A DNA stretch of 33,058 nucleotides from Anaerotruncus sp. G3(2012). Lineage in GTDB: Bacteria; Bacillota; Clostridia; Oscillospirales; Ruminococcaceae. A model generated the notes under the pieces. That model was not told the DNA's origin, ran no database searches, and saw only the letters and a list, made by a program, of their open reading frames with translations. Below, in pieces: positions 93 to 28,669 of this stretch. The translations under genes and the position numbers were made by a program. Numbering within the stretch: the first letter of the stretch is position 1; each line of letters begins with the position of its first letter. The stretch covers positions 108,884 through 141,941 of the forward strand of contig NZ_KE159678.1 in NCBI RefSeq assembly GCF_000403395.2. Direction: 5' to 3'.

Positions 93-455
93 TTACATTT
101 TCATTTCCGGGGCAGGCGGGGCCTCCTGACTCTCCTGCTGCCGCAGGGGAATCTGGGTCAGCGTCTGCTGGTAGGCGTCCAGCACCGCCTGGTGGAACTG
201 CTGGTGGAACTCCTTGGTGCAGGGGAAGCAGATGTCCTTGTAGCCGTCCCTGCCCTTGTAGCTGGGCAGGGAGACGAAGGGGCCATTGCTGCCGTCCACG
301 ACCTTGATGCCCCGGATGGCGAAGCATCCGTTCAGATTGACGGAGGCGTCGGCCAGGACGGGGCCGCTGGCGTGGAGGGAGTGGATCTTCACATCCACCT
401 GCATGGGGAGGGCCTCTCGCTGGGGAGCGGGGGCCGGGGTAGGGGCCTGTTTCAT
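93..455 (-). CDS. SpoVG-family domain protein
   Basis: A 120-residue protein with a Pro/Ala-rich N-terminus (about residues 1-18) and a central SpoVG-like domain. The domain shows the family pattern of a short beta strand, then IRGIKVVDG, NGPFVSLPS and a DICFP segment, followed by a C-terminal helix. In Bacillus and Listeria, SpoVG is a small nucleic-acid-binding regulator, and copies are frequent on Clostridial mobile elements. The ATG at 455 is chosen over an in-frame start 48 bases upstream because AAGGAGGAA sits just before it. It is the last gene of the methylase block, 44 bases after the DUF3849 gene. The C-terminus ends in Pro-Glu-Met-Lys-Met, loosely like the Met-x-Met tails of the neighbouring proteins. 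A regulatory role is inferred from the family. Confidence 0.8.
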   Translation of the reverse strand: MKQAPTPAPAPQREALPMQVDVKIHSLHASGPVLADASVNLNGCFAIRGIKVVDGSNGPFVSLPSYKGRDGYKDICFPCTKEFHQQFHQAVLDAYQQTLTQIPLRQQESQEAPPAPEMKM

Positions 456-499
456 TGTCGGTTCCTCCTTAAAATGTAAGAATTTTTGATATAATGGGA

Positions 500-1258
500 T
501 CACTCCATAGTCATGCCGTCCATGGAGTGGCCGATGTCCTGTTCCTGCTGGACACCGCGAAGTTCCTCCAGCTTCTCCCGCGCCCAGTCCGGCAGATACT
601 GCTCATCCAGAACGCCAGCGAAGTCGGAGCGGTTCCAGCGGGTCTTTTCGCCGTCGCTCAGGCAGGTGGCGTAGACCGCCTGACCTCTGGCGTGGGGAGA
701 ACAGCCAAAGCCGCCTTCCGCCAGCCAGAGCATATTGCGGGGGTCCCAGCAGCTCTCCCGGAGCGTGTCGGGACACATCACCAGCACTTTGCCCTTGTAG
801 TCCTGCTCCAGCGGGTTACCGGCACAGTGTTCCAGGCCGAACAGCCCCAGCGCCTGGTATGCGTCCCTGGCCTGTCCGATGAACGACTCCAGCAGTCCCG
901 CGGCGGTATCCACCGCGTAGCAGCGGTTATATTTGCTGTCCTGGGGAACAAAGGTTATCCTGCCCCACTGGTAGGTCTCATCGCTGACCAGATGCTTGCA
1001 GGCCGACTCGCGGAACTCCTGCAGGGAGTTGGCGAGAACGAAGTTTACATGCTTAAAGCCGAACTGTTCCAGCACAGACTGGGCGCAGCCCTCGGCCAGC
1101 GACTCGTCCGCCGCGTTGAAATGATCCCGGACAGCCTGCTCGATGGCTCTGGCGCAGTCCACATTCACCCGAAAGCTGTCCTCGTGCATCTGCGTCTGCC
1201 TCAGACGGCGGGCGTCGGCGCGGGAGTAGGGGTACAGATAGGGAAAATCAGCCGCCAT
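500..1258 (-). CDS. DUF3849 domain protein
   Basis: A 252-residue soluble protein. The N-terminal half matches the DUF3849 pattern: a YPYSRADA start, an acidic helix with CARAIEQAVRDHF, and GFKHVNFVLANSLQ near residues 67-81. The C-terminal half carries the companion segment with LGLFGLEHC, GKVLVMCPDTL, LWLAEGGFGCSP and ATCLSDGE, usually found with DUF3849 in Clostridial ICEs. The molecular function of the family is unknown. The start ATG has GGAGG nine bases upstream and overlaps the 3' end of the AbrB-like gene by 11 bases, which implies translational coupling. The protein ends Asp-Gly-Met-Thr-Met-Glu, one of the shared Gly-Met-x-Met tails of this window. Confidence 0.8.
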   Translation of the reverse strand: MAADFPYLYPYSRADARRLRQTQMHEDSFRVNVDCARAIEQAVRDHFNAADESLAEGCAQSVLEQFGFKHVNFVLANSLQEFRESACKHLVSDETYQWGRITFVPQDSKYNRCYAVDTAAGLLESFIGQARDAYQALGLFGLEHCAGNPLEQDYKGKVLVMCPDTLRESCWDPRNMLWLAEGGFGCSPHARGQAVYATCLSDGEKTRWNRSDFAGVLDEQYLPDWAREKLEELRGVQQEQDIGHSMDGMTME

Positions 1259-1754
1259 AGACGGTATCCTCCGCGATCAGATGCTCCTCCAGCCTGCCCA
1301 GGCAGGCGCCCACCACCATGAAGGTCTCCAGCAGATCCGCCGGAAGGTCCCGCAGGTCATAGCGGTGTTCCGCCGCCAGAACCGTAATGGTGTGGGCCTC
1401 CTCGTCCACCTCGGCGCACAGCTTGGCCCCATCGGGGATGCCGGCGGCCTCCCGCAGATACTCGTTCACCTGAACGATTTCCTCCTCGAAGTCATTGTAG
1501 GGGCAGCTGTCCTTATCACAGTCCTCACAGGGGCCGCAGACCTCCGACAGGTAGTGGAGCAGCTGGGCCGACGTGCTCGTGAGCTGTTGGACAACGGCCA
1601 GCAGCTCCGGGGCGCTCATCCGCCCTTTCAGCACCAGCATGGCCCCATCCAGGGTGTGGTACTCCACCTTGTCGCCGGCGTTGAACCCGGCCAGCCGTGC
1701 GGCGGTCACTGGAAGCAGGAGACCCTTGGGTGTGATCTCTTTGATGAATTTCAT
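1248..1754 (-). CDS. AbrB-like protein with a four-cysteine cluster
   Basis: A 168-residue protein. Residues 1-45 look like an AbrB/SpoVT-type swapped-hairpin DNA-binding domain (KEITPKGLLLPV, then AGDKVEYHTLDGAMLVL). A helical segment and a cysteine cluster follow, spaced C-x2-C-x2-C-x4-C near residues 74-84, a plausible metal site. A second AbrB-like strand pattern is present (YLREAAGIPDGAKL...ITVLAAEHRYDL), ending in a helix (LETFMVVGACLG). The ATG at 1754 is preferred to an upstream in-frame start because of TCGGAGGAA just before it. It follows the methylase gene by 22 bases and overlaps the DUF3849 gene. Probably a transcriptional regulator of the element (inference). Unlike most of the neighbouring accessory proteins it lacks the Gly-Met-x-Met tail. 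Confidence 0.65.
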   Translation of the reverse strand: MKFIKEITPKGLLLPVTAARLAGFNAGDKVEYHTLDGAMLVLKGRMSAPELLAVVQQLTSTSAQLLHYLSEVCGPCEDCDKDSCPYNDFEEEIVQVNEYLREAAGIPDGAKLCAEVDEEAHTITVLAAEHRYDLRDLPADLLETFMVVGACLGRLEEHLIAEDTVYGG

Positions 1755-1776
1755 GTGATATTCCTCCGATTTCTGA

Positions 1777-2610
1777 TTAAATTTCCTGTCCGAAATCAAA
1801 CAGGTTCAGCTGTGTGGCGGCACGCTGCCGCACGGTCATGTCATAGTTGGCGATGAACACCTCGGCAAACTGGCAGTTGGGGTCGTACCGCTGCTTGATG
1901 TTGTTCAGCCGGGTCACCGCCTCGATCTGGATGCCGGGAGCGTCGTACAGCTCCCGGACAAAGGCGTCGTCATTGTAGGAGAGCAGGAACTTCCCCTCAA
2001 TGGACAGAAGGGCGTCCCGCAGGCGGATGTGGTCTTTTTCTGTAAATCCGTCCTCCCCGATGTTCTGGTAGTACCCCTCGGTGGCATGGTAGGGCGGGTC
2101 GCAATAAAAAAGGCTCACCGGGCGGTCGTACTGCCGGATGAGCTTCTCAAAATCTTTGTTCTCCACCACCACGTCCTTCAGACGCCGGTGGGCCTGCTCG
2201 ATGAGAAGGAAATTGGCCCGCATGTCATGGGGCTGGCTGCCGTAGCTGGTGAGGGCGGAGGCGTAGCTGTAGCGGATGATCTGATAGAACCACGCCGCCC
2301 GCTGGACGTCGGTGGTGCGCTGGCGGCGCAGGGCCAGCCGCACCCGGTCAAAGTCCTCACGGGAATTGAGAACATATTTCAGGGCGTTCATCAGCAGATC
2401 CGGCTTGTCCCGGACACAGCGGTACAGGTTGGCAAGAAGGCTGTTGAAGTCGTTGTAGACCTCAAAATCCCTGCCGGGGGGCTTGTGGAACAACACCCAG
2501 CCGCCGCCCCCGAAGATCTCAATGTAACGTTCATAGTACAGAGGGAACCTCTGCACCACCTCCTCCCGCAGCGCCTTTTTGCCGCCGACCCAGCTCATGA
2601 AGCTGTTCAA
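1777..2610 (-). CDS. dam: DNA adenine N6-methyltransferase, Dam/D12 class
   Basis: A 277-residue protein with the D12-class signature. Motif I-like WVGGKKAL is at residues 7-14, FGGGGWVLF at 33-41, and the catalytic DPPY at 171-174 in FYCDPPYHATEGYY. The expected length for the family is 260-300 residues. It transfers a methyl group from S-adenosylmethionine to adenine N6. No cognate restriction endonuclease is visible nearby, so it is probably an orphan methylase that protects the incoming element or alters regulation (inference). The start is TTG at 2610, not the ATG four codons later. GGAGGTGA lies at an ideal distance from the TTG, and family members begin with a similar NSF-SW-GGK sequence. 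The TTG overlaps the TGA of the upstream winged-helix gene. Confidence 0.93.
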   Translation of the reverse strand: MNSFMSWVGGKKALREEVVQRFPLYYERYIEIFGGGGWVLFHKPPGRDFEVYNDFNSLLANLYRCVRDKPDLLMNALKYVLNSREDFDRVRLALRRQRTTDVQRAAWFYQIIRYSYASALTSYGSQPHDMRANFLLIEQAHRRLKDVVVENKDFEKLIRQYDRPVSLFYCDPPYHATEGYYQNIGEDGFTEKDHIRLRDALLSIEGKFLLSYNDDAFVRELYDAPGIQIEAVTRLNNIKQRYDPNCQFAEVFIANYDMTVRQRAATQLNLFDFGQEI

Positions 2611-2933
2611 GGGCTGTCACCTCCCGGGATGCGGAGCTGGGCGGTGTCGAACTTCTCCAACGACTGGTTCAGGCCCCGGATGGCGGCGGCGATGCCGCTG
2701 ATCCGGTGGGTCATGTGGGCAATGGTGGCGCGTACCTCCTGCTCCGCGGCGGTATAAAAGTAGCCGTTGGAGCTGCTGGCGATGGGGATGCCCCTGCGCC
2801 GGAGCCGGTTGACCGCGTCCCGCAGTTCCTTGCCCCGGACGGAGAAGGTCCGCTCCAGTTCCCGGCTGGTAGCGGCGCTGCCCTCGCCCAGATGGTACTG
2901 CCGCAGATATTCGGCCAGCTGTTTATCCTCCAT
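2607..2933 (-). CDS. Small winged-helix DNA-binding protein
   Basis: A 108-residue protein. Residues about 5-58 form a predicted winged helix-turn-helix (LAEYLRQYH, ATSRELERTF, GKELRDAVNRLRRRGIPIASSSNGYFYT). A C-terminal helix with heptad-like hydrophobics (about 60-95) could mediate dimerisation. The ATG at 2933 has GGAAAGGAGGAAT upstream. Longer in-frame starts would read through the structured 2948-3125 segment and are rejected. The stop overlaps the methylase start, so the two are probably co-translated. It may control its own operon through the inverted repeats just upstream (inference). No closer family name is recognised. Confidence 0.65.
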   Translation of the reverse strand: MEDKQLAEYLRQYHLGEGSAATSRELERTFSVRGKELRDAVNRLRRRGIPIASSSNGYFYTAAEQEVRATIAHMTHRISGIAAAIRGLNQSLEKFDTAQLRIPGGDSP

Positions 2934-2947
2934 GATTCCTCCTTTCC

Positions 2948-3125
2948 GGGGCCGTTTTTCCGAAAAAGAGCACAAGCGGGAACCCCACGGGAGCCCAGCG
3001 AAGCGGGTCCCGTGGGGAGAGGAGAAGCAACGGAATGAGCGAGCTTTCGGGCCTCGCCCGGAAGCGAGGGATATGGAGCTTGCGACGACGAAGGAGCCGC
3101 TTGTCCCTTTCGGTAAAACGGCCCC
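2948..3125. repeat. 178-bp structured segment bounded by inverted repeats
   Basis: The segment is bounded by GGGGCCGTTTTTCCGAA (2948-2964) and its inverted copy with one mismatch (3109-3125). Weaker pairing continues inward around ACAAGCGG. Inside are a strong hairpin at 2983-3017 (CCCCACGGGA paired with TCCCGTGGGG, plus an inner CCC/GGG) and a second at 3052-3069 (CCTCGC/GCGAGG). It lies in the 5' region of the winged-helix/methylase genes and has no convincing coding frame. It could be a structured RNA leader, a MITE-like insertion or an operator region. The structure is seen directly; the role is unknown. Confidence 0.6.
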
Positions 3126-3139
3126 TTGATGCTGATTCG

Positions 3140-3175
3140 TTATTGAATGAACTGTCTGGCATGGGCTGTGCCCAT
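3140..3175 (-). CDS. Possible 11-codon leader peptide
   Basis: A tiny ORF on the minus strand encodes Met-Gly-Thr-Ala-His-Ala-Arg-Gln-Phe-Ile-Gln and then TAA. AAAGGAG lies nine bases before its ATG. Its first 15 bases form a perfect hairpin, ATGGGC-ACA-GCCCAT (3161-3175), so the start codon would be paired in RNA. It sits just upstream of the 178-bp structured segment that precedes the winged-helix and methylase genes. That arrangement recalls translational or transcriptional attenuation leaders. A chance ORF is quite possible. Confidence 0.3.
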   Translation of the reverse strand: MGTAHARQFIQ

Positions 3176-3206
3176 GGAACACCACTCCTTTCCTCTGGCG
3201 GTCCAG

Positions 3207-3233
3207 TCACTGCATGGTCATGCCCTGCTCAGG
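3207..3233. repeat. 27-bp direct repeat, copy 1 (tail-coding)
   Basis: A perfect 27-base repeat with 3870-3896. On the minus strand it encodes Pro-Glu-Gln-Gly-Met-Thr-Met-Gln-stop in the frame next to that of the gene it terminates. The spacing equals one gene length (663 bases). This suggests that tail-coding DNA was duplicated together with, or recombined between, adjacent genes. Confidence 0.85.
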
Positions 3234-3873
3234 TGAGTACCTGGCTGGGCGTTTGTATGGTTTCCACTCTCCGGGTGTGGACAGGATCGGTCCACATCTC
3301 CTGGAAACCCGCCACGATGGACTCACAGGCTCCAAGCCCACTGTCCAACGCCTCCTGATTGATTTCGGAGAACTGGCCTGCCAAGTCAATGATATAGTTC
3401 TCCAGCCCGATAATAATATTTTCTTTCCTGCCCTCACTCAGTTCCGGCACATCGACTCCGTTTTGGGCGGCGGACACCGCATCATCAAAGAGGGCGCCAT
3501 AGTGTTCTTCCCGCACCACTGGATCATCGTCCTCTTCGAAGGGGTCAGGCCAAAACGCCGCAAGACCGCAGATGAAATCCCGCAGGGCAGGGAGTTGTTC
3601 ACCGCTGCCATGAGCGGCGAGACAGGCCCCATGTCCGATGAGTCCGTGCAGACAAAGCCGTATCTCCTTGAACCGCGCGTGATAGAACTCATCTGAAAAG
3701 TTCCAGCCCTTGAGTTTTTTCGGCGGGATATTTCCGGCAATACAGGCCAGCGCGGGACAGGACTGGAGTTTTCTTGAGAGCGGCGATCCGGGGTTTCGCA
3801 TGTGCCCCATGATAAAATGCCGCACACGGGGCTTTCCAGGCTCGATCAGTAACAATTTACCTCTTCCTTTCAC
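3229..3873 (-). CDS. Unknown protein, paralogue of the N-terminal half of the 7692-8879 product; 3' frameshift
   Basis: A 214-residue frame. Residues about 65-170 align with the N-terminal half of the protein at 7692-8879: shared blocks are CLxGLxxHxxxLAAxGxxEQLP, a following AxFW, then FDxAVSAA and PELS. The family is not recognised. A GTG start is taken because it overlaps the upstream TGA (GTGA); no clear Shine-Dalgarno is visible. The frame ends in TGA at 3229. The neighbouring frame, without a stop over the same region, continues to 3207 and ends Ser-Pro-Glu-Gln-Gly-Met-Thr-Met-Gln, nearly the same end as the upstream gene product. A single-base frameshift near the 3' end is therefore likely, and the intact gene would have been 3207-3873. 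Function unknown; translation of the 5' part remains possible. Confidence 0.6.
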   Translation of the reverse strand: MKGRGKLLLIEPGKPRVRHFIMGHMRNPGSPLSRKLQSCPALACIAGNIPPKKLKGWNFSDEFYHARFKEIRLCLHGLIGHGACLAAHGSGEQLPALRDFICGLAAFWPDPFEEDDDPVVREEHYGALFDDAVSAAQNGVDVPELSEGRKENIIIGLENYIIDLAGQFSEINQEALDSGLGACESIVAGFQEMWTDPVHTRRVETIQTPSQVLT

Positions 3874-3896
3874 TGCATGGTCATGCCCTGCTCAGG
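3870..3896. repeat. 27-bp direct repeat, copy 2 (tail-coding)
   Basis: Identical to 3207-3233. Here it encodes, in frame, the final Pro-Glu-Gln-Gly-Met-Thr-Met-Gln of the ArdA-like protein and contains the GTG start of the following gene. Confidence 0.85.
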
Positions 3897-5291
3897 CGGG
3901 GACATGGCCTCATTCCCGTGGACGTACAGTCCGGTGCTGCCGGATGTGTAGATGCTCTCGAACTCGTGGGTCAGGGCGGCGTAGGCGGTGAAGTCGACGC
4001 AGCGGTCGATCACCTTTTTGTCCAGGCCCTTCTCCAGCAGTTCTTTCTCTGCCTTCTCCCGGAAGCTGCCGATCTCTACGAACTCATAGCTGTCCAGGCG
4101 GTCGGCGATCTCCACCGCCTCCTCCAGACTGGCACAGTCCTCCGATTCCATCGCCGCCTGGAGCTGCCGGAGGCCGCATTCGCCGCGCCCGGCCAGAGCC
4201 TCCGCAATGGCGGCTCTGGCTGCGGCAGCATCCTCCGGGGCGGCCTGGCTGGACATCTTCTCCAGCATGGGGACGGCTTTCAGCACATCCTGCTGGGCCG
4301 GGGCAGTAAAATCACGGACAAATTCCTTGCCGTTGCGTGTCAGATAGCCGGTTTCACTGCCGGCCTCCATGTATCCGGAACTCTCCAGCAGATCTTCCGC
4401 ATAGGCGTCCAGATCAATATTACCGGACCGGATCAGCTCCTCCGGTACATGATAGGTGCGCAAGTTGTTTGCGGCAAATTCCTTTACACCGTCACGGGGT
4501 ACCCACTCGTAGCAGTGGAGGTTCTGCGCGATGTCCAGGGCAAATTTCAGGGTACGGCAGTCTTCATACTCCAAAGCGGCGGCAAACTTGTCCAGCCAGT
4601 GCGCTTTGCCCTGACCCTGCTCAGCCAGAACATAGCCGAGATTATCCCCATCCCGAACCAGATCGGTAATGCTGGAATACTGCTTCGTAAGGTCTCCGGC
4701 CTCGGGGAGAATACACCGGGCTTCCAGCAGAGTGCAGTCCTCCAGAGACTTGACCCGCAGCTCGTCCAGTGCCAGCACGACCTCGTCCGCGTCCTCCGCC
4801 ATTTTGCCGTCATATCCCGGCAGACGGAGCCACACGCCCTCGGGGACCGCAGGGGAGGCCAGCTTCAGCTTGACGCTCCAATCGCTGTCCTCCGGCAAAA
4901 ACGCGTTCTTTCCGGAGTAAGCTGGTTCTGCTGCCTTTTTCGGATATTCCACATAATAGCCTCCGATGAACAGTCCGGGGTGCTCATCCTCAAACTCCTG
5001 CCCGATGTGATCAAAATCCACATAGGGCAGGACGTCCTCCGGCAGGCTGGCCGCTCCTTTCTGGCTGTACTTGCCCAAATCCTCATAGCTCCCAGCCGGA
5101 TGGAGCGTGCAGTCGGGCAGGCTCAAAATACTCTTGATGGCGTCAGCCGCCTTTTCGGGTGGATACCCCATCGAGACGGCGGCGAGGGCGTAGCTCTCCC
5201 GGACGCTTAACGTCTCCAGCTGCTCCTTCAACCACTCCTGTTCCTGGGGCGTACCGGGCAGTTCCAGGAATTCTTTGAAATCATTCATCAT
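3870..5291 (-). CDS. ArdA-like repeat protein (putative antirestriction)
   Basis: A 473-residue acidic protein with what look like three ArdA-like units. The first, about residues 25-120, has YALAAVSMG, DYVDFDHI-like spacing and GLFIGGYYVEY. The second, about 230-340, has LEYEDCRTLKFALDIAQNLHCYEWV, then LDAYAEDLLESSGY and GETGYLTRN-like residues. The third, about 370-455, has MESEDCASLEEAVEIADRLDSYEFV, then VDFTAYAALTHEFE. Units two and three are clearly alike. ArdA proteins mimic B-DNA and block type I restriction; that function is inferred here from motif order and acidity only. The start ATG overlaps the upstream stop (TGATG), with GGAG encoded in the preceding tail. The C-terminus is Gln-Gly-Met-Thr-Met-Gln. 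Confidence 0.55.
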   Translation of the reverse strand: MMNDFKEFLELPGTPQEQEWLKEQLETLSVRESYALAAVSMGYPPEKAADAIKSILSLPDCTLHPAGSYEDLGKYSQKGAASLPEDVLPYVDFDHIGQEFEDEHPGLFIGGYYVEYPKKAAEPAYSGKNAFLPEDSDWSVKLKLASPAVPEGVWLRLPGYDGKMAEDADEVVLALDELRVKSLEDCTLLEARCILPEAGDLTKQYSSITDLVRDGDNLGYVLAEQGQGKAHWLDKFAAALEYEDCRTLKFALDIAQNLHCYEWVPRDGVKEFAANNLRTYHVPEELIRSGNIDLDAYAEDLLESSGYMEAGSETGYLTRNGKEFVRDFTAPAQQDVLKAVPMLEKMSSQAAPEDAAAARAAIAEALAGRGECGLRQLQAAMESEDCASLEEAVEIADRLDSYEFVEIGSFREKAEKELLEKGLDKKVIDRCVDFTAYAALTHEFESIYTSGSTGLYVHGNEAMSPPEQGMTMQ

Positions 5292-6400
5292 CACTTCATC
5301 TCCATTCCGCCCTGTTGGGGGCTTTCTTCCATACCCTGGACCGGCTGTCCGTCCGAACGCTCGATCAGGCCATAGGGAGTCAGAACGCCGCCGCACTTTT
5401 CGATCAGCGCCTGTCCGTACTGGTATAGATTCAGGTGTGGGGCGAGTGTCGCCGCGTCCGGCTCACAGAGGATAAGAGAAAGCTCCCCCTTCGCCACTTC
5501 GATGGGGGAGCTGTACTGGGGGGAGAAGACGTAGTTGTCCAGCGAGTCCATGAGCGCCCCGGCGCTCAGGATGTCCTTGCAATCTGTGGCTTCCAGCAGG
5601 GCCTTGTAAGCGGTCAGGGCCTTCGGCTCCAGCCCTGCCAGTCTGCGGGCCAGCAGGTCCACAGTTTCCATTCCACTGGTCAGACCGATGAGTGACGGCG
5701 CGGTGCAGTCCACACAGCGCACCGGCTCCGTCCCCATGGGAGCGTTGGCCGGGTATGGGAACTCCACCCGGTTTCCGTCATATGTCTCAGCCAGGATGGT
5801 GTACGCGGGTTTTTTCGGCGTGAGATCCAGGGTTTTGTAAACCTGACGCGGTTCGCTGTGCCGCTCCACATAGCCGAAGCCGGTAAATGTACTGCCCTCC
5901 GCCTCCCGATGGTTCTTCCCAATCTGCGCGTAGTCCAGCAGTTCAAGCGTGGCGTCCGGAATAGCGTCTGTTTCCGGGATAAACCCGTTCTCCACAAGGA
6001 ACCTGCCCAGTTCCTCATCGGTCACGGCATCCTCCAACACATGGCAGCATTCCCCGCTGTAGGCGTAGTCGATCAGGCTGCCAATGGGGATCGTTTCCAC
6101 GCCTTTCTGAATATCCATGCAGACCAGCCCCTCGAAGACAGCCATACCTCGCGTGTCCAGCTCTGCCAGCCGCTTGGCCAGGGCATTGAGCGGGAAGATG
6201 TCTGTCTCCTGAATGCACTCGTTCAAGTAGTCGTATCCCTCGACAGCATGGAACTCCAGATACGGGTGCTTTCCGTCCTCCAGCCGGAGCTGTTCCATCG
6301 CGTCGAGAAGTTCGTAATCCGTGGCTGGCAGATCCAACTCCACTTCCTGATAGGCTCCGTTGGGGCTGCTGAATGTGCGGATATGGAATACCTTATCCAA
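5291..6400 (-). CDS. ArdA-like protein (putative antirestriction)
   Basis: A 369-residue acidic protein. Residues about 55-185 follow the ArdA pattern: [48 protein letters not shown], then [14 protein letters not shown] second, weaker copy follows at about 245-355 ([47 protein letters not shown]). ArdA-type proteins are DNA mimics that protect incoming conjugative DNA from restriction; this assignment rests on the motif pattern. The start is TTG at 6400, since GGGAGGGATGA lies upstream inside the 3' end of the DUF4314 gene and the two genes overlap by eight bases. The protein ends Gly-Gly-Met-Glu-Met-Lys, and those codons supply the ribosome binding site of the next gene. Confidence 0.6.
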
Positions 6401-7691
6401 GAGTCATCCCTCCCATCGGCGCTCCAGCCTCCATATCGGTGGGGGACTGGAGGGTCTGCTCATAGGTCCTGGGATCAGCGGCAGGGCAGTCCCAGCCATG
6501 CATAGACCCGGCCTCCATTGCCAGCCGCTGGGCGCCGGTGACGCCGAGACGCTGGTTGTTGTAGTCCGCCAGCTCCCGGTTCTGGGCGGGGACGCCGGTA
6601 TCCCAGTCCGAGGGGTAATAGCCGCTCTCGCCCCGTTTGATACAGATGAGCGCCCCAGTGCTGGGCAGGACGGAAAAGCACAGTTCCGGCAGTCCCTCCG
6701 CCAACTTCTGTTCAGAAGCCGCTTTTTTCATCAGCGCCTGTTCCTGGATGTAGTGCCTGGGATCAGCGGCGGGGGAGTCCCAGCCACGCAGGCAGCCGCC
6801 CAGCATGGCCTGCTCTTGAGCCTTGCTGATTCCGCGGCATTGATTGCGGTAGTCCGCTATGTGCCGGTTCAGACCGGGTTTCTCACTGCTGTTCTCCGAC
6901 ACCTGATAGCCGGCGCCTCTGGTAATGCAGATCAGGGAGTCATCCTCCGGCAGGACAGAGAAGCACATATCCGGGAGCCGCTCAGAGAAGTGGGGATCGA
7001 AGCGGTCCTGCTCCGGCATGATGCTCCAGTTCTTGCTCTGCCACAGGTGGACATACAGCTCACAGCCATCTCCGATGCCAATATCACGCTGCTCAAAGCC
7101 CTCGCCCCAGCCATCAGACATCTGCCCGCTCAGATAATCAGTCAAAGTGTCCAGTTCCACAGGGGTCAGCGCTTCTGCTGCCTTGCACTCCACTACCGCC
7201 CAGAGCCGGCCTTCCCGTTCCTCTGTAGTGAAGAGAGCAGAGCGGACCTTGCGATCCACGGCATCATCTTTGCCGTACCAGTGCATAATGCCGCGCTCCG
7301 CTTCTTCCGGCATCCGTTCCCGGATCAGGGCGGCCAGGATGCTGTCCGCATAGTGGCGAAGATCCCGCCCGTCCAAAGGAGTACCATCCTCATCCATTCC
7401 GCCGTATTCATCGGGTTCAAAGAGTTCCGCGGTCATGGGGGCGTACAGCTTCAGCGTCTGGAGGGGCGGGGGCAGGACAGAGAAGCTGTCCGCCCCCAGC
7501 ACCAGGTTCAGGCTGCGGCCACTGTCCCAGTTCACCAGAAAGTGGCCGGCGTCGTCGATGCCCTTCAGCGTCCCCATGCTCCCTGGCTCCACCGGGTGGG
7601 GGTCGTCTTTCATCTCGCGGAGCTTGATCCGGCTGCCCACTGGAAACTGTTCCCGCAGAAAATCCAGCCATTCTTTTGGTATCCGGTCCAT
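6393..7691 (-). CDS. DUF4314-domain protein with an internal duplication
   Basis: A 432-residue protein. Residues about 15-73 match the DUF4314 pattern ([44 protein letters not shown]), a small beta-barrel-like domain of unknown role. Residues 80-235 are an unrecognised acidic region. Two copies of a unit of about 76 residues follow (239-314 and 334-410). They share LP-CFSVLP, LICI-RG, LADYNNQ-like and GWD-PAADP-Y motifs. The ATG follows the upstream stop directly (TAAATG), with GGAGGG in the preceding tail codons. The protein ends Met-Gly-Gly-Met-Thr-Leu-Gly. Function unknown; the context suggests an accessory or anti-defence role (inference). Confidence 0.7.
6462..6692 (-). repeat. Intragenic protein repeat, copy 2
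   Basis: Encodes residues about 334-410 of the DUF4314 protein. Shared with copy 1 (6750-6977) are the LP-x-x-CFSVLP entry, a LICI-x-RG strand, an AD-Y-N-Q helix and the GWD-x-PAADP-x-Y exit. The copies are diverged, so the duplication is old. Confidence 0.75.
6750..6977 (-). repeat. Intragenic protein repeat, copy 1
   Basis: Encodes residues about 239-314 of the DUF4314 protein and aligns with copy 2 (6462-6692) over its full length. The copies are separated by a charged linker of about 20 residues. Confidence 0.75.
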
Positions 7692-8879
7692 TTACATTCC
7701 CTCCATTTTTATATCAGTTTGCGGCCCGTTCCTCTGCGGGGGCCCGCCCTCACGCGCCTTTTGAATGTCCGGACAGTCGGAGAACCAAATTGTGTGATGA
7801 GACTTCAGATGGAACTCCACAGCGCACGGTTCCAAATACTTCTCACACAGGCGGGGAAGATACTCCTCAACCTCATCCCATTCGTAGGGATAGTCGACGC
7901 CTTCTCCATAGGTAATACCTTTTTTTAACTCCGCTACCAGTGCTTTGTATGCGTCCGGGTCCGTGTTTTCATAGGCGTCCTTGCTGGTCAAATGCTTCAT
8001 CGTTTCGTTTCCAGTGTAGAGTAATTCCTCAAACTGGCAGCCTCCATAGGCTTCCACATCTGCCAGAGAGTCCGGATCAGCCAACGCCGCCATGTAGACC
8101 TCCTCGCCCTGGGCGATGAGCCATGCCCGGAAGTCGATGAAGCCGTCGTCTGAGCAGCCGTTTTCACACATCAGAGAGGCAGCGGTCCACAGTCCATACT
8201 GATATGATAAACTCATGTATCCGTCCATGATATGGGTGAAGTCCTGTGTCTGCTGGGGGCCGCGGGCAATGAGCTGACTGGTCAGCCAATTGATGGATGA
8301 GCCCATATTCTGACCGCATTCTTTCTTTGCCCCGGCAATCAGCTCCCAGAAATCGGACTTGCTCATTTCCATACCGGCCTGCAGCGGCTGAGGAGAGGAT
8401 GCTTCCATTCTCCAGTCCCTTTGCAGCTCGGATGAGAGCGCATCGCACTCAGCGATCCACCGCTCCAGACCGCCACAGTCCATCATCTCCTCAGCATACA
8501 GCCGCAGTCCATTCAGGATATCTGTTTTTGTCTGCGCACTCAGCTCAGGTGCGCCGCCGGAGTCTCTGGCGGCGGATACCGCCTGATCGAATGTACTGCC
8601 GATTTGCTCCACCATCTCCCGGTATCCCTTGGGTGTGTCATCCTCAGCCAATCCCCAGAACTCAGCCATATCTGTGAGCAGTCTGCGGAATGTGGGCAGC
8701 TGTTCTTCCTGACCCTGTGCGGCAAGCCGGGCGGCGTGTTCCGTCAGGCCAGCGATGCACTGGCGCATCGTGTTTTTATATGCCTGATACTGCGGCTCCA
8801 TCTGAGCGAGAAGTTCATCGACGGTATAGCCGCGGGTGTTTTCGCCCTGGGCCGGCGATGTCTGTTCTCTGTTATCCAA
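7692..8879 (-). CDS. Fused protein: unknown paralogue domain plus DUF4240
   Basis: A 395-residue frame made of two former genes. Residues 1-171 are a paralogue of the product at 3229-3873 (FDQAVSAAR, PELS, LAAQGQEEQLP). Residues 172-395, from Met-Ser-Lys-Ser-Asp-Phe-Trp (codon at 8364-8366), match DUF4240: an FWELI start, a CSDDGFIDFRAWLIAQG block and YMAALADPDSLAD. Between them lies Gly-Met-Glu-Met, the tail that ends separate proteins elsewhere here, so a stop codon has apparently been lost. The start is TTG at 8879: GGGAGGAATG lies upstream, and the TTG overlaps the TAA of the previous gene. It ends Lys-Met-Glu-Gly-Met, with GGAGGGA for the next gene in those codons. Functions of both parts are unknown. 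Confidence 0.7.
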   Translation of the reverse strand: MDNREQTSPAQGENTRGYTVDELLAQMEPQYQAYKNTMRQCIAGLTEHAARLAAQGQEEQLPTFRRLLTDMAEFWGLAEDDTPKGYREMVEQIGSTFDQAVSAARDSGGAPELSAQTKTDILNGLRLYAEEMMDCGGLERWIAECDALSSELQRDWRMEASSPQPLQAGMEMSKSDFWELIAGAKKECGQNMGSSINWLTSQLIARGPQQTQDFTHIMDGYMSLSYQYGLWTAASLMCENGCSDDGFIDFRAWLIAQGEEVYMAALADPDSLADVEAYGGCQFEELLYTGNETMKHLTSKDAYENTDPDAYKALVAELKKGITYGEGVDYPYEWDEVEEYLPRLCEKYLEPCAVEFHLKSHHTIWFSDCPDIQKAREGGPPQRNGPQTDIKMEGM

Positions 8880-9885
8880 GCTGCATTCCTCCCATTTCAA
8901 TACGTTCCGCCATATCCTCAGCCTGGATAGGCGGCGTCTCATAGAGCGTCTTTTTTCCGTAGGTAATTCTGGTGATGTCCTCCGCACAGTAATTGGCGCC
9001 GCGGCCAAACAGCCGCTCGAACTCCTGACGGTCAGCGGCGGCAATATGGCTGGTGCTGTAGGAGTTGTAGCGTCCTCTTAACGGAGTAGTTCCTGTCCTG
9101 AAAGACAGTTCTTCTCCATTTTTCTGGACAGTAACGGTCACCGTCTTGGCGCCGCTGGTTTTGATGGCCTCTGATATCGCCTTGACCCGGTGGAGGGGGC
9201 TGTCAGTATTTTGTACTATCGCCTGATATTCCGCCACCAGAGCATCGTTTTTCAGAAATTGCAGGAGGAATTTCTCTTGGTTGATTTTAATATGCTGATC
9301 CGCCTCTGTTTGAATGAGGCCCTCCGGATTCTGGAGCCAGGCCATAAAAGTGGCCTCCGGCAAATTGCCCAAGGTGTAGCCACTGTGAAACTGTCCATCT
9401 GGCTCGCTGCCGCGAAAGAACCAATCAATGGCTTCCCTGTGCGCGCCATCCTCCAGGTATTCTTTCAGCTCCCGCGCCGCCTGCCAGCTGGTGACCTCTT
9501 GGACAGACAGGTTGTTCCGGTCGTTGGCGATAGTTTCCTCCACGCACTGGTTGATTCTGCCGCATATCTCATCCACCACAGAGGGGATGGTCTTGGACGC
9601 AAACGGGACCTGTCCGTCTATGAGAATCGTTGTAAGGCTTTCTGACAGATACAGTGTCTTTTTTCCAATATCATGTACGCCGCAGAACGTCAGACCATTT
9701 CTCCAGGAAATACTTCCGTCTGCCTCAACGGCGGTTTGGTATAGATAGTCAACAGGCCTCTTTTCAATTTTGAGGAGCATCGTGACAGCCTCCTCGCCCT
9801 TGTATATTGTTAAAGGCGTCTTTCCCCAGTACAGCCAGCGTTGGAAATCATCACGGGAAACCGTACATTGAACAAGGTCTTTCAT
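8872..9885 (-). CDS. Unknown accessory protein
   Basis: A 337-residue soluble protein with no recognised family. Visible features are an N-terminal mixed alpha/beta region (residues 1-90), a helical middle with CVEETIANDRNN and REAIDWFFRGSEPDGQFHSGY (about 112-170), and a basic beta-rich segment with VTVTVQKNGEELSFRTG and PLRGRYNSYSTSHI (about 245-290). It contains no membrane segment or signal peptide. The ATG overlaps the previous stop (TGATG), with GGGGGGA eight bases upstream inside the tail codons of the LPD28-like gene. It ends Met-Gly-Gly-Met-Gln-Leu-Gly. Its place in a fully overlapping gene string argues for joint expression with the ArdA-like proteins. Confidence 0.6.
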   Translation of the reverse strand: MKDLVQCTVSRDDFQRWLYWGKTPLTIYKGEEAVTMLLKIEKRPVDYLYQTAVEADGSISWRNGLTFCGVHDIGKKTLYLSESLTTILIDGQVPFASKTIPSVVDEICGRINQCVEETIANDRNNLSVQEVTSWQAARELKEYLEDGAHREAIDWFFRGSEPDGQFHSGYTLGNLPEATFMAWLQNPEGLIQTEADQHIKINQEKFLLQFLKNDALVAEYQAIVQNTDSPLHRVKAISEAIKTSGAKTVTVTVQKNGEELSFRTGTTPLRGRYNSYSTSHIAAADRQEFERLFGRGANYCAEDITRITYGKKTLYETPPIQAEDMAERIEMGGMQLG

Positions 9886-11195
9886 CAGGTGATTCCCCCC
9901 ATCGTCATGCCGGTACCACCGTAGTCCTCGATCTGGCGGGGATTCTCCTCCCCATACAGGCCGCAGAGCATATCGTCCACGGCCTTGCGGACTTCCGGGT
10001 TATCCGTCAGGGTTTCACAGCGGAAGCCGGTGGCGGCATGGCAGGGCAGCTCCTCACGGACGGCCTGGAGATATTTCTCCGGGTCAGTATAGTTCCACCG
10101 TTCCCCGCTGGCGAAGGTGACCCGCCCGACAGCCGGGCTTTCGTCCAGTACCTGCCGGAGACGGGCGGCAGCCTCCGCCGTCACCGGGTCATCCTTGAAT
10201 TCGTCCATCCTCAGCCGGTCTTCTGACAGCCACTCCCGGCCATCCCAATGGATGGCCAGATCCACCGCGGCGATGCCGTCCTTGGTGACCCCCAGCCGCT
10301 TGTCCTCGCAGTCAAGACCGGCGTATAACTGTATGGCCTCCTCCAGCGGGAGCTGGTGGGTCACTTGCCGCTCAGGCGTGTTGATGTGTTCGATCACATA
10401 CCACTCATAGCTATGGGGGAGTGTGGGATCAGCGGCGTTTTGGAGCGACTGGCGCCCCTGTTCCGTCAGTCCCATCTGCTGAGCCTGTTTATCGAAACAA
10501 CTGAGGTAGCACTGGTAGTCGCCCTCTATGGGATTGCACCGCAGACGGTAGAGATACCGTCCTGTCTCCAGCGTGAAGCCGTAGTTCTGGCAGCAGGAGC
10601 CGCCGGCAATGGCGCCCTTACTGCCATAGCAGTACCGCCGCATGGAGGGGAGGTCTTTCAGGACGCCCTTGCGAAGATCGTTCACCACCTTGTCCAGCTC
10701 ATCCCGGAACTCCTGGGTGTTCAGCTCCTCGGGGCCTCTGGGCCACCAGGTATGGTAGAAGCCCCCGCGTCCGTTGTGTCCGAAGTCGATGCGGACATGG
10801 CCGATGGCCCCCAGCTCCTCATCCTTCTCCGGCGTCTGAGCATAAAAAAGCCCCGCATCCTCGGGAGATGCGGGGCACAGCTGATGGCGGACAGGCGTTT
10901 CAGGGCAGCGGATCTTTTCCTCAGCACAGAACTCCGCCAAGCAGGGATTTGTACCGGTCATCTGGAACATATCCCTGACCAGCCGGAACTGGGAACGGGC
11001 TTTTTTCAGCGGCAGACAGGAGAGGATCGAGCCGGCATGGTTTTCCTCCGCCAGATCCACCAGCGCGTGGGGTTCGTCCGGATGCCGGGCTGTACCACGC
11101 AGGTCGTAACAGTACCAGCCCTGGGGCACATCCTCACGGGGGATGGGCGCGGCACTGTACAGCACCGAGGCCCCGAACAGGCGAGCCCCCAGCAT
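9885..11195 (-). CDS. LPD28-like accessory protein
   Basis: A 436-residue protein. The N-terminal 70 residues resemble the large polyvalent protein domain LPD28 (IPREDVPQGWYCYDLRGT, then NHAGSILSCLPLKK). The middle holds further segments often joined to it in Clostridial ICEs (LAEFCAEEKI, LCPASPEDAGLFYA, IGHVRIDFG). The C-terminal half contains HQLPLEEAIQLYAGLDC, RLGVTKDGIAAVDL and EDRLRMDEF. Function is unknown; LPD domains occur in mobile-element polyproteins. The ATG at 11195 has AAGGA five bases upstream. In-frame sequence continues a little further (Ile-Asn-Ile-Tyr-Lys-Asp-Lys), so a native start may have been lost at the joint with the adhesin gene, whose out-of-frame tail overlaps the first 190 bases. 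It ends Gly-Met-Thr-Met-Gly-Gly-Ile-Thr. Confidence 0.65.
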   Translation of the reverse strand: MLGARLFGASVLYSAAPIPREDVPQGWYCYDLRGTARHPDEPHALVDLAEENHAGSILSCLPLKKARSQFRLVRDMFQMTGTNPCLAEFCAEEKIRCPETPVRHQLCPASPEDAGLFYAQTPEKDEELGAIGHVRIDFGHNGRGGFYHTWWPRGPEELNTQEFRDELDKVVNDLRKGVLKDLPSMRRYCYGSKGAIAGGSCCQNYGFTLETGRYLYRLRCNPIEGDYQCYLSCFDKQAQQMGLTEQGRQSLQNAADPTLPHSYEWYVIEHINTPERQVTHQLPLEEAIQLYAGLDCEDKRLGVTKDGIAAVDLAIHWDGREWLSEDRLRMDEFKDDPVTAEAAARLRQVLDESPAVGRVTFASGERWNYTDPEKYLQAVREELPCHAATGFRCETLTDNPEVRKAVDDMLCGLYGEENPRQIEDYGGTGMTMGGIT

Positions 11196-15172: not shown

Positions 15173-15205
15173 AGGCTGTGGGTCTCCTTTCCTGATTTTG
15201 GGCAT

Positions 15206-19925: not shown

Positions 19926-21818
19926 TTAGGGAGCCTCCTCCAGCTTGCGGTATTTTTTTCGTGGGCGGACCGGCTTGTCAGGCACACCGCCTTCCGGCTT
20001 CTCCACCTCTTTTTCTTCTGGTGATTCCAGCACGGGGACTTTTTTTGCCTGTTCCTCCTCCGCCCGCCATGCAGGGATATACTCCGATGCCCTGGATTTC
20101 ACCAGCCGCTGTGCGTCCGGGTGCAGCGAATAGTCGAACTTTTCGCACTGGAGGACATTGTGGCCCCGGATGATCACCAGCTCCTGATCCAAAGGCATCC
20201 GCAAAATCTCATCCATGGTCATCAGCTTACGGCGGCCCAGGCCGCTGGTTTCCCGATACTGGGGGGTGTAGCTGCTCACCTGCCAGGAGGAGAGCTGCCG
20301 GGCGGTGCTCTGGACGCCGATGGTGATCTCCCCGGTGCGGTCGCTCAAAAACTTGGCGGTGGCCTCATCGGTGCAGCCCAGCGCGATCTGCACATCACAG
20401 TTGCCGATGATCTCCTGCCAGACATCGTTGGGATACCGGTTTTTCATCTGGGCCAGGTTCTGGAAGATCACGCTCACCGAGATAGCCCGGCTGCAGGTGA
20501 CGGAAATTTTTTTGTTGAAGTCCAAAATGAGGCCGCTGTTGGGATGCTCGTCCAAAATGAAATTCACCGGAATATCGCAGCGGCCGCCCTTTCCTACCGA
20601 ATCGGCATACCGCACCAGCTTGATAAACAGGCAGGAGAAGAAAAGGGAGGAGAGGAAGTCAAAGGTGGCGTCCTGGTCGCTGGTGATGCAGAAGAAGGCG
20701 CACTTCTCTTTGGCCGGCAGCTCCAGATCGATCTCGTCAAAGGAAGTGATCTTGCGGATCAGCTCCGACTGGAACACCTGGAGCCGACTGCCCAGGCCTA
20801 TGATGACGCCGCCCCGCACCGAGTCGGCCGCCTGCTTGAAAATATTGTAGGGAGCTTTGGCCGGATGCCCTGGCGGCAGGGCGCCGATCATCTTGGTAAG
20901 GGCTGCCTCGCTTTCATTGCAAAGCAGCTGGTAAACCTCGCCGATGTTGCAAAGCCTTTCTGGGTAGGTGAAGCGCACATAGAGGATCAGGGCTTTCAGA
21001 AGGTTCAGTTCGCTGTTGTCCCAGAAGTGGTCGCTTTTGCCGCCGGAGGTATTCTTGATGATGGTATCCGCAAAGACCTGAGCCATTACCTCGTCACCCA
21101 CTTCGTTCAGGCAGTTCCAACTGTCGCTGTTCTGGGGGCGGATCAGGTTCAAGACCCGGACGGTGTAGCCGCTTACAGAAAGGAAGGCTGCCATATCCTC
21201 GAACAGCTCGGATTTGGGGTCGGTGATGATGACCGATTCCCCCCGGCGCACCGCTTGCAGCACCATATTGCGGACAAAGGCCCTGCTCTTGCCGCTGCCG
21301 CTTGCGCCATAGATGGCAAAATTTCGATTGAGGCGGGAATCGGTGGGGAGGCAGACCGCCTTTGCCCCTTTCCTCCCCAGGATGACGGCATCGGTGCTTT
21401 TCACATCGGTGACCCATAAGGTTTCCCGCAGCTCCCGGTCGCTCATAAAGCCCGCTGTGCCGTAGCTGCCGGAATCTGCGTAGGTCAGCTTGCGGGCGCT
21501 GTCGTACTCCCCGCCGCCATCCCGGCCGATGCGGAAGACGAACAGAATGAGAACTGCCAGCACTGCCAAAATGAGGCCCATGCTGATAAGGCCCTCCGGC
21601 CAATGAAAGGAAGCGGCCAGGCACCGCAGCACCGAGGGGTCCGGCGGTTTTGGCGCGTTGTGACCGAGAACGCCGCCGGTCTGCTGCCACGCTTTGTAGT
21701 GAATAAGCAGTTGGGCAAGGAATCCGCCGCCGTAGAGCAGCAGCCCCAACAGCAGCGGGAGAAAAACAAGCAGGACGATTTTCTTTTTGGGTTCTATCTC
21801 AGCCCCACCTCCTTCCAT
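19926..21818 (-). CDS. virD4: VirD4-like coupling ATPase
   Basis: A 630-residue type IV coupling protein. Two TM segments (about 12-40 and 62-90) are followed by the TraG/VirD4 ATPase. Walker A is YGASGSGKS at about 170-178, preceded by NFAIYG. Walker B is FILDEHPN at about 417-424, followed by the sensor-like SVSVIFQNLAQM. It docks the relaxase-DNA substrate to the channel and belongs with CD1115-type proteins of Clostridial ICEs. The C-terminus is charged and Pro/Lys-rich. The ATG at 21818 has no Shine-Dalgarno; a strong AAGGAGGTG lies just downstream of it, 10 bases before an in-frame ATA, so the true start is uncertain. It overlaps the upstream gene by 25 bases. Confidence 0.95.
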   Translation of the reverse strand: MEGGGAEIEPKKKIVLLVFLPLLLGLLLYGGGFLAQLLIHYKAWQQTGGVLGHNAPKPPDPSVLRCLAASFHWPEGLISMGLILAVLAVLILFVFRIGRDGGGEYDSARKLTYADSGSYGTAGFMSDRELRETLWVTDVKSTDAVILGRKGAKAVCLPTDSRLNRNFAIYGASGSGKSRAFVRNMVLQAVRRGESVIITDPKSELFEDMAAFLSVSGYTVRVLNLIRPQNSDSWNCLNEVGDEVMAQVFADTIIKNTSGGKSDHFWDNSELNLLKALILYVRFTYPERLCNIGEVYQLLCNESEAALTKMIGALPPGHPAKAPYNIFKQAADSVRGGVIIGLGSRLQVFQSELIRKITSFDEIDLELPAKEKCAFFCITSDQDATFDFLSSLFFSCLFIKLVRYADSVGKGGRCDIPVNFILDEHPNSGLILDFNKKISVTCSRAISVSVIFQNLAQMKNRYPNDVWQEIIGNCDVQIALGCTDEATAKFLSDRTGEITIGVQSTARQLSSWQVSSYTPQYRETSGLGRRKLMTMDEILRMPLDQELVIIRGHNVLQCEKFDYSLHPDAQRLVKSRASEYIPAWRAEEEQAKKVPVLESPEEKEVEKPEGGVPDKPVRPRKKYRKLEEAP

Positions 21819-24356: not shown

Positions 24357-27300
24357 CTAAAAACGGAGTGCCTGGATTCTTGCCTGGGCCTTTCTCTGCA
24401 GGATCTTCCCAAGTTCCTCCCTGTCGGTGGTGATCAGCTCCTTCTCCAGCTCGGAGCAGCGAAATTCCACCGTCACATTGTTGTTATTGGTGGAGATGAG
24501 GCCGCTGCCCCGCTGGAAGTGGGTGATGTTCATGATTTCCGTATCGGTGAGGTGAAGCGTTTCCTGGACCCGGCGGGCCTCGTCATCCTCCATGTTGAGG
24601 ATGATCTTGGTCTTGCAGACATTGAGGATGCCCCGGCCGTACTTGCCGTCCTCCAGCGCCAGAAAATCGGAAAGGTCCTGAGTATCGGCCACCGCACCGC
24701 CGCCGTAGCCCCGGATGATCTTGAAAATCTCCAGAACATAGTTCGCCACATCCCGGTTGGAGCCGCTGCCGATGAGCTTCCACATCTCTGGGATGAAGAT
24801 CATCTTGCGGGTGGTGCGGTCGGCCTTTACGGTGTCGAAGATGTAGTCCAGGCCGGAGAACATTCCCACCGAGAGCAGGTCGCCGGAAAGCTCGCTGATG
24901 TCGATGACGGTGTACTTGTTGTCCAGAGAGACATTGGTGGGCTGGTTGAAGGTGGAGGCAGAGCCGTTTACCAGACGGTTCAGGATATTGGCCAGCCGCC
25001 TGGTTTCGGGGCTCTCCCTGAGCAGCGCGTACAGGTTGCCCAATATGGGCATCTGCCGGTAGCTGCCAGGTCGCTCCGGGTCCTCCAGGGAATCGTTGTC
25101 ATGGGTGATGCCGAACCGGTTGTAGGTGCGGACGATAGCCTCATCCAGCAGCTGCTTCTCCTCGTAGCTCATATCGGGGATGAGGAGGCTAAAGAAGATA
25201 TGCAGCTTCTGAATTTTAGCCGCCAGCTCAGAGCGGTCGCCCTGGGGGCCGTCCAGCAGGTCATTGGCGGAGGTGTCCACCTTGCGGATCTCCATGATGT
25301 TGATGCAGTTTTTGGAGGCGGGGGAGATCTGGATGAACTCCCCGCCGATGTTCTGGCAGGCCCGGCGGAACTCGTGACCCTTGAGGGGGGCCAGGATAAA
25401 GACCTGTATCCCATGCTGCCGCAGGCGCAGGGCCATCAGCTGCATAGTGAAGGTCTTTCCCGCGCCGCTGGTGCCCAGGATGGCCATATTGGCGTTTTTG
25501 TAGAGTCGGGAGTTGAAGATGTCCACCACCACCAGGGAGTTGTTGTACTTGTTGACCCCCATAAGGATGCCGTTGTCATCGCTCATCTCGAAACTGGTGA
25601 AGGGGTAGCAGCTGGCCGCCCCGGTGGTCAGGACATTCCGCTTGGTTTTCCGGTAGAGCTTTTTTCCGATGCCAGCGATGGGCAGAACGCTGAGCAGCGC
25701 ATCCTCCTGCAAAAAACCGCACACTCTGGCATCCATGTCCTGGGAGATCAACAGCTTTCGCATCTCCTTGACCCGCCAATCCAGGTTCTTCACGCTGTCC
25801 GCTGTGATGGTGATGATAATGGACAGGTAGTAGAAATCCTCGTTGTTGGCGATGCCCCGCTTGAGGAAATACCCGGACTGGATGGCACCCTCGAGGTCGT
25901 CAAAGTCGGTATTGGTGTCGCTGGTATCCTTGATCTTGCTGCGGTTGATGCGGATCTGCTGTCCGATCTTCTGCTGGACGCGCTCCTTGGGCTCTTTGTG
26001 GAAGAACAGGTCTACATCGATCCCCTCCCCGGCGTTGACGATGAGGGAAAGCCAGCCCGCCACCACCTGCACCTTATAGGCGTCCGCCGGAATGATCAGA
26101 TAGCTGTGGTAGAGGCCGTCCATGAGGATATACCGGGAATGGGTAAAGTCGATAGAGGGCGGGGCCACCAGCTCGTTGACATCCACCTCCTCCAATTTTG
26201 TGGGCTCATCGCTCATAATGTACCGGCCCAGTACCTCTGCCACCCGTTCCCCCAGAGGAACCTGGGCCGAGGTCTTGCGGTTAAAGAGGATGTAGAAGAC
26301 CTCGCTGATAAACTCATCCTCGTTGTCGTGCTCCACAATGTGGTTGCCGCATTGGAGCAGAAAGCTGCGGGCGTTTCGGGCGGTGGTTTCCAGCACCGAG
26401 AGGACTTCCCGGTAGTCGGGGCGGCGGTTGGCGTAGTCGTTTTCGTACTCGAAAATGAGGAAGAACCTTCGGGTCACTGCCTCACGGGAGCCCAGCCGCC
26501 GGATGAGGCTGTAATAATCCTTCTGCAGCTCCCGGCACCGGGGCTCCGGCTCCTGCTGCATACATTCCCGCAGCTTTTCCAGATGCTGGCCCACATCCGC
26601 CTTTTTGGAGATGACCTTGAATTGCAGCTTTACCGGGCTGATTTTCAGAAGGCTGGCGAAGGAGTAGACGATCCCACGCTGCTCCCTGGGGCCCCGCAGC
26701 AGGAAGTTCAGCGGCTCTACCTCCAAAATTTTGATATACCGACCGTCCTTGGTGATGACAATGCCGTTTTCAATGCGTTCGATGGGAAGGTAGTCCTTGA
26801 GGACCTTGGCGTCCTCCAGCTTGCGCTTCACCCTTTTGCGGGGCTTCTTCTGGTCAGTGGCTGCCGGCGATAGGGGACGGTTTTGGAATTCGTCCCACCG
26901 GGCAGCATTTTCCGGTACCTCGGTCTCGCTGTCGTAGAAGACGATCTCGAAGTCCTCCTCGTCGGCCCGGACCTCTTTGGCGGGGAGTTTCGTCCGCAGG
27001 CGGTCCAAAGCCTTGCGGACAAAGCCCGGCTCCCACCAACGGCGCTTGTCCAGCAGTTCCTCCGGCGCGTTGCCGATGATCCTCCTCCGCCGCAGCCAGC
27101 CGAAGAAGTTCAGGACAAACTCGCTGAGGCTGTCGTCCCCGATGCCGATGAGGCCGAACAGGGTCAGCGGCAGGGGGATCAGGCACAGAAGGATGATGCG
27201 GTAGTAAAGACGAATGGGCAGGTGAAAAAGGGGAAAGCCGGTGGCCAGCCCCAGGATGGCGGCCTCCACCACATTCCGCCAGCGGAACATCCCGCCGAAC

Positions 27301-28667: not shown

Positions 28668-28669
28668 GG

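Follow-up and report, generated by a model that had tools for sequence, protein, structure and literature searches.

Short C-terminal tips common to unlike accessory proteins of Clostridial conjugative elements: a candidate class-specific signal for type IV secretion

The stretch described here, referred to hereafter as the window, covers 33,058 nucleotides of contig NZ_KE159678.1 of Anaerotruncus sp. G3(2012) (positions 108,884 to 141,941). It holds a run of accessory genes on the minus strand (Table 1), in which LPD28, ArdA or related domains lie beside type IV secretion system (T4SS) genes in a conjugative element, as in the polyvalent/LPD class of proteins. The original prediction held that these accessory proteins, which had no other domain in common, share a Gly-Met-x-Met/Leu tail at the C-terminus. 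Every end that it quoted (DGMTME, QGMTMQ, GGMEMK, GGMTLG, KMEGM, GGMQLG and GMTMGGIT) was found on the minus strand, and GMEM was confirmed at the domain joint of the fused open reading frame. The variant tail PEMKM (EMKM) of the SpoVG gene at 93-458 was absent from its list. Of the 12 genes at 93-11195, 6 encode the strict motif GM.[ML] within their last 8 residues. When windows were drawn at random from the interior of these proteins, 0.014 occurrences were expected and none of 20,000 draws reached 6, which bears out the predicted C-terminal enrichment. None of the 13 further minus-strand genes at 15260-31260 of the window had a GM.[ML] end.

QGMTMQ at 3207 lies in a different frame from the main frame of that gene, 3229-3873, which ends in TPSQVLT; a near-identical end, TPSQALT, was seen in a relative (L058). 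That the proteins have no other domain in common holds only in part: the products of 3870-5291 and 5291-6400 both match ArdA, the first below cut-off, and weakly match each other (E 0.004), and the N-terminal half of the DUF4240 fusion is related to the 3229-3873 product (36% identity, E 1e-18).

At the nucleotide level, the pattern GGNATGVNNHTGNNNTRR, in which the TRR element also matches TGG, had 22 matches over the whole of the organism's own genome, 4 of them at window tails, and the reversed control pattern had 6. A second pattern, GGNATGRMNATG, was enriched in the same genome (87 matches vs 16 reversed), but in the 30 hits read this enrichment does not reflect the tails: not one of them is followed by a stop codon one or two codons further on, and an interspersed repeat accounts for four or more of them.

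Table 1. Genes of the window, with the basis of each assignment and the C-terminal tail.
Gene or product	Position	Strand	Basis	C-terminal tail
SpoVG-family (PF04026)	93..458	-	Pfam, 4.7e-24	variant, PEMKM (about 93-110)
DUF3849 (PF12960)	500..1258	-	Pfam	DGMTME (500-520)
AbrB-like	1248..1757	-	name from the original prediction; no Pfam match	tail-less control
Dam-like methylase	1777..2610	-	name from the original prediction	tail-less control
Gene with main frame 3229-3873	3207..3873	-		TPSQVLT in main frame; QGMTMQ (3207-3227) in another frame
ArdA-like	3870..5291	-	Pfam, 24 bits, below the 27-bit cut-off	QGMTMQ (3870-3890)
ArdA-like	5291..6400	-	Pfam, 33.5 bits	GGMEMK (5291-5311); overlaps next gene
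DUF4314 protein	6393..7691	-	Pfam	GGMTLG (6393-6413)
DUF4240 fusion	7692..8879	-	Pfam	variant, KMEGM (7692-7709); GMEM at joint (8364-8375)
Protein without Pfam family	8872..9885	-		GGMQLG (8872-8892); overlaps next gene
LPD28 protein	9885..11195	-	Pfam, 77.4 bits	GMTMGGIT (9885-9911)
VirD4-like coupling ATPase, CD1115 family	19926..21818	-	NF045973, 408 bits	none
VirB4-like ATPase	24357..27368	-	clustering with relatives' ...LFGKAGGR proteins	none

The tails recur in related elements. A profile search with LPD28 found 71 loci in species genomes, mostly of Oscillospiraceae and Clostridia, together with 6 in the plasmid collection and 2 in the viral collection. Many of these loci had the same families nearby, and the tags were kept while the sequence preceding them diverged: relatives of the DUF3849 protein end in GGMEMT, GGMNMK or GGMKMG, those of SpoVG in APPAPSMSM, PAPTMTM or GPAMTM, and those of the 3870-type ArdA-like protein in GAGMTMQ, PEMTM or SEMSME. 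An alignment of 19 DUF3849 sequences placed the tag at the extreme C-terminus, beyond the conserved domain, which ends in LPDWAxEKLEELRG and is followed by a linker of variable length and then, in most rows, by GGMxM. This tag was retained down to 42% protein identity although the linker diverged.

The content of methionine in the last 8 residues was then counted in 79 of 89 stretches of related elements. The ten stretches set aside, both here and in the ribosome-binding-site comparisons (L112, L113, L115-L118, L121, L122, L124, L125) were not clearly of the Met type (type A), yet L116 and L124 hold Met-type ends. Genes came from a custom caller, with 9885-11195 added by hand, and rows were dereplicated at 85% identity for these counts and for the ribosome-binding-site comparisons below. 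Methionine made up 14-28% of the last 8 residues in seven accessory ("cargo") clusters, compared to 0.8-3% of the protein bodies (p 1.9e-17 to 2.5e-100); seven is a rough family count, since BLAST links were joined by single linkage and DUF4314, DUF4240 and the 3229 family merged into one cluster. The individual values were 187/928 (20%) for the ArdA-like cluster, 79/336 (24%) for LPD28, 66/320 (21%) for DUF4314/DUF4240, 38/136 (28%) for DUF3849, 29/104 (28%) for the 8872 cluster, 27/104 (26%) for SpoVG and 38/264 (14%) for a cluster of 232-residue proteins. In the remaining proteins pooled, which still include tagged singletons, 226 of 5832 last-8 positions were Met (3.9%), and internal 8-residue windows of the cargo matched M.[ML] in 179 of 9866 cases (1.8%). 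There was no Met in the last 8 residues of VirD4, the VirB4-like protein, the M23 peptidase or a small protein whose gene precedes that of the relaxase and which, from that position, is MobC-like. The Dam-like and AbrB-like clusters had 1/128 and 3/160, respectively, and were tail-less as predicted. Because the choice of cargo clusters, of the Met measure and, further below, of the [ED]x(0-2)R rule was made with the tails already in view, the p-values describe the pattern and do not test it; the collections of MobP3 relaxases and SpoVG were made later.

It is quite improbable that the tails are left over from a cassette for gene joining or recombination, or reflect plain common descent of gene ends, with no present function. 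The tails at 3207 and 3870 do share 27 identical bases, which marks that pair as a copy made at the DNA level, and the GMEM at the joint of the fused frame would fit such an origin. However, among seven families of direct repeats of at least 18 nt in positions 1-11300, just the 3207/3870 pair lies at gene ends; the DUF3849 tag has outlasted its linker, as described above, and the Gly and Thr codons vary.

Tails of the same kind were found on relaxases, which are the canonical substrates of a T4SS. Many MobP3 relaxases, gathered by a family model, end after a conserved GHKxDDHE in MGGMTMGGM, MGGMTMGW, GGMVMGGM, GPSMSM, WPEMTM, SQTMSMG or PTITM. Met occupied 54 of 408 last-8 positions in MobP3 relaxases (51 distinct ends), compared to 1 of 248 in the PF03432-type family (31 ends, some of which come from fragments; p 7e-11). 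Where the GHKxDDHE-type motif was present, 32 of 40 ends had a Met in the last 6 residues. In L205 (G153:C9) an early end of the relaxase frame led to a tail-less score; immediately downstream, a different frame contains a GMVMY end. The gene that follows the relaxase, the product of which clusters with a DUF3991/Toprim_2 protein and is primase-like, was often tagged (TMEMGGMG, ICIQTM, CQALQL) but not always (LQEQQKG).

Many of these genes overlap, and the Gly-Gly codons of overlapping pairs (mostly GGAGGN) double as the Shine-Dalgarno (SD) sequence of the next gene. In the window, the DUF4314 tail places GGAGGG at the expected SD site of the TTG start of the following gene, while the gene after DUF3849 (500-1258) starts 44 nt downstream with an SD of its own. 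The tail might then be merely a coding imprint of the next gene's SD and start codon, a form of translational coupling, and an SD was indeed present in 78 of 125 overlapping cargo and relaxase tails. Among other overlapping genes, however, GGAGG or AGGAG was present in 112 of 181, yet only 16 of the 181 had two Mets, compared to 87 of the 125 cargo and relaxase genes. Among genes that lacked GGAGG and AGGAG in the last 8 codons and that either had no gene after them or had 4 nt or more between their stop and the following start, M.[ML] was present in 59 of 135 cargo and relaxase genes and in 24 of 491 others (p 3.5e-26). Two-Met tails also persisted far from the next start (58 of 116 where it was at least 25 nt away, 52 of the 58 without SD). 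At that distance, or with no next gene, the Gly codons were mixed (GGA 15, GGG 16, GGC 16, GGT 6), as were the Thr codons in tails without overlap or SD. All of 13 SpoVG rows lacked an SD in the tail and 12 of them had two Mets. An SD imprint as the sole cause was therefore rejected, and coupling as the full explanation is most unlikely. The simplest reading is selection on the peptide, with the SD as an added constraint that would act on GGM in overlapping pairs. The variation of the Gly codon named in the original prediction was seen in tails without overlap; its proviso that conservation of the tail might be confined to places where it doubles as a ribosome binding site is contradicted by the SD-free tails.

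A second code, rich in Lys and Arg (K/R), was found in other elements. L112, L113 and L115 (Peptococcaceae, Desulfosporosinus, Desulfotruncus) show KKYEQER, KKKSHEPER, KKKHGIER, EKKAVGYER or close variants at the C-termini of four proteins: one related to DUF3849, one related to LPD28 residues 105-248, a small one and a very large one, the last a methylase-helicase (Pfam) in L112. The YodL protein of L121 ends in HPKGPER. In elements with a MobA/VirD2-type relaxase (PF03432), DUF3849 ends in KKREPER and two other larger proteins end in KKSAEREL and KKPKQHEEVR. Canonical ArdA (SHEER), a DarA_C protein (NHEER) and SpoVG (SRSAER or GKEGRDGR) also had K/R ends, and some PF03432-type relaxases were K/R-like themselves (ERRYER, RNYER, EQSHER, DHGQR). 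On contigs with both genes within 60 kb, 10 of 11 DUF3849 proteins near a MobP3 relaxase had the Met type, the exception having lost its tail, and all 16 near a PF03432-type relaxase had the K/R type; these rows include near-identical ones (G245:C59 and G123:C1, and two copies from the organism's own genome, G000). In the gene sets of the two classes, dereplicated at 70% identity, [ED]x(0-2)R ends were found in 50 of 282 proteins of the K/R class and 5 of 231 of the other, while ends with at least two Mets were found in 4 of 282 and 32 of 231, respectively. The organism's own genome holds both codes, GMTME in the window and KKREPER in other elements.

SpoVG provided a natural control. No tag was found in the 34 rows of the chromosomal-type clade, whereas the 29 rows outside it divided into 20 with the Met code, 7 with the K/R code and 2 without either. 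Chromosomal status of the 34 rows was set by clade and not by gene context, in a coarse tree built on few columns; the surrounding element was inspected for part of the tagged rows. Homologues outside the element that lacked the tail had been named as evidence against a functional tag. Such homologues do exist in the chromosomal-type clade (0 of 34), but since 27 of the 29 other SpoVG proteins are tagged, the tail goes with the mobile element and not with the protein family, as an element-specific tag would. The SpoVG copies suggest that a gene may turn into cargo by gaining a tip.

The tag exists, is common to different families, is conserved over deep divergence and is not explained by ribosome binding sites. 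Many relaxases carry it, whereas the machinery and Dam-like methylase clusters tested and chromosomal-type SpoVG do not, and the type of tag goes with the class of the element. Different tagged proteins, class specificity, tagged relaxases and untagged machinery are the pattern that a T4SS loading signal predicts. The tail is a real and widespread feature, and we consider it probable that it is a C-terminal T4SS signal with one code per element class. In this reading the conjugation (type IV secretion) machinery of the element, most likely its VirD4-type coupling ATPase or an adaptor that the element encodes, would recognise a short and presumably unstructured address tag. The antirestriction, primase-like and polyvalent proteins, which are expected to act in recipients, and the relaxase would thereby be marked for delivery to the recipient cell, together with the transferred strand or in parallel with it. 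The tags would be hydrophobic and Met-based in MobP3-relaxase elements (G-M-x-M, M-G-G-M or a terminal hydrophobic-x-M) and K/R-rich, mostly with E-x-R or E-x-L ends, in MobA/VirD2-type elements. That a coupling protein recognises the tail, that the tail is disordered and that it directs export are inferences.

Several observations weigh against this reading. Just 18 of the 51 distinct MobP3 ends match M.[ML], and just 14 of the 31 PF03432-type ends match [EDQ].?R. The MobP3 relaxase of the window's own contig (G000:C22:74490-76964) ends in EPVQQLR with no Met, and a MobP3 clade (G437, G293, G365, G265) ends in HGLKQ, HGLKP or HGLRL, untagged, while its cargo is tagged (APTMQM, APTMRM, SPTLSM, GGMTIGGM); a universal relaxase tag was rejected. 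One MobP3-linked DUF3849 copy (G245:C3) has lost the tail, and two SpoVG rows outside the chromosomal-type clade (L082, L362) are untagged. In the DUF3849 tree the K/R type forms a single nested clade, so that tag type switched essentially once, and tag class and descent are confounded within DUF3849. Repeated switching was not found in the DUF3849 domain tree; a count of 3 includes two KGKEMEL rows labelled type A by rule.

The main rival, which we regard as unlikely, is a docking tag for another partner encoded by the element or the host, such as the replisome, a chaperone or an SSB-like tip interaction. Bacterial SSB recruits partners via tips common to different proteins. A docking tag would keep tagged proteins on the incoming DNA without a role in export, and its presence on DNA-linked proteins (the primase-like protein and relaxases) is consistent with this. 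However, tag type follows element class inside one host genome, and tagged SpoVG and a tagged pentapeptide-repeat protein are no obvious parts of a replisome. Because two codes occur in one host genome, the reader of the tag is more likely encoded by the element than by the host. The tails might also act as a C-terminal degron that limits the proteins in time through type-specific proteases or adaptors. Short hydrophobic or basic C-terminal tips can serve as Clp recognition motifs, yet a host protease needs no code that differs between elements of one genome, and relaxases too would need degron tags; we give this explanation very little credence. The original prediction offered export, docking and a cassette relic as hypotheses. 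Of the three, the T4SS export signal is favoured, both by the tags on relaxases and by the existence of a different tail code in the other class of elements.

A C-terminal T4SS transport signal of the basic kind was reportedly described by Vergunst in 2005. Published T4SS signals include C-terminal motifs rich in basic or hydrophobic residues (PMC11288057). Like the signals of Agrobacterium VirB/D4 and other T4SSs, the tips described here are short, C-terminal and basic or hydrophobic, the K/R code resembling the basic kind. They differ in that they occur in Gram-positive integrative and conjugative elements, on many accessory proteins per element and often on the relaxase, and in two class codes. 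In F and pED208, maintenance proteins that the plasmid encodes pass through the conjugation channel (PMC8406263, PMC11288057); signals there reportedly vary between and even within systems (PMC11288057), in contrast to the one tag that recurs here on different proteins. Iyer et al. 2017 (PMC5512222) described polyvalent proteins of conjugative elements, among them LPD, YodL, ArdA and methylase-helicase proteins like those found here, and discussed their delivery together with DNA; the terms 'C-terminal tail' and 'secretion signal' do not occur in that text. PMC12857230 names the 89K island of Streptococcus suis as one reported case. No description of such a shared C-terminal tag was found in the literature searched.

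Among the closest known systems are also the Tn1549-type elements, with CD1110/CD1115 conjugation genes. A CD1115-family VirD4 is present both in the window and in pMG2200, and proteins of Tn1549 show K-rich or H-containing ends with x-L-E-[LV]: on pMG2200, 4 of 14 proteins read ended in NELEV, GLEVE, HLEL and, more weakly, WTQEL. In contrast, the accessory genes of the window use the Met code, and the relaxase of its contig is MobP3, while that of Tn1549 resembles the PF03432-type one (37% identity). A second T4SS set lies on the same contig (G000:C22:70385-90076; L128, L129), with a VirD4-like gene (246 bits), a VirB4-like gene and a MobP3 relaxase with Sel1 repeats. It is located 20-40 kb downstream of the cargo genes, in a gene order that matches other Met-type elements. 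The window's own CD1115 VirD4 and this second set possibly represent two elements side by side.

Other features of the window were noted. Positions 1-90 hold an interspersed repeat of about 90 bp with the core GGTATGGAAATGAGAAATTTTGACGATAG, four copies of which read nearly identical around the core, and its 12-mer GGTATGGAAATG has many further copies in the organism's own genome. Two 128-bp direct repeats, 70% identical, lie within the DUF4314 gene (6463-6878). A large open reading frame at 11006-15208 contains, by eye, repeated SpaA-like pilin or adhesin segments. It shares about 190 nt with the LPD28 gene, its end there being out of frame, which may place a recombination junction between the adhesin region and the cargo region.

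Whether Clostridial conjugative elements carry a class-specific C-terminal export passport that would load the relaxase and a counter-defence set into the channel is, in our judgement, evenly balanced. If they do, this would be the first shared signal of its kind recognised in Gram-positive T4SSs. Because a shared tag can be read from sequence, the question of export is directly testable: the tag gives candidate signals, predicted cargo lists and a Met versus K/R specificity swap, with built-in negative controls in the Dam-like, AbrB-like and VirB4-like proteins and chromosomal-type SpoVG. Families of unknown function in these elements would then be predictable as acting in the recipient from their last ten residues.

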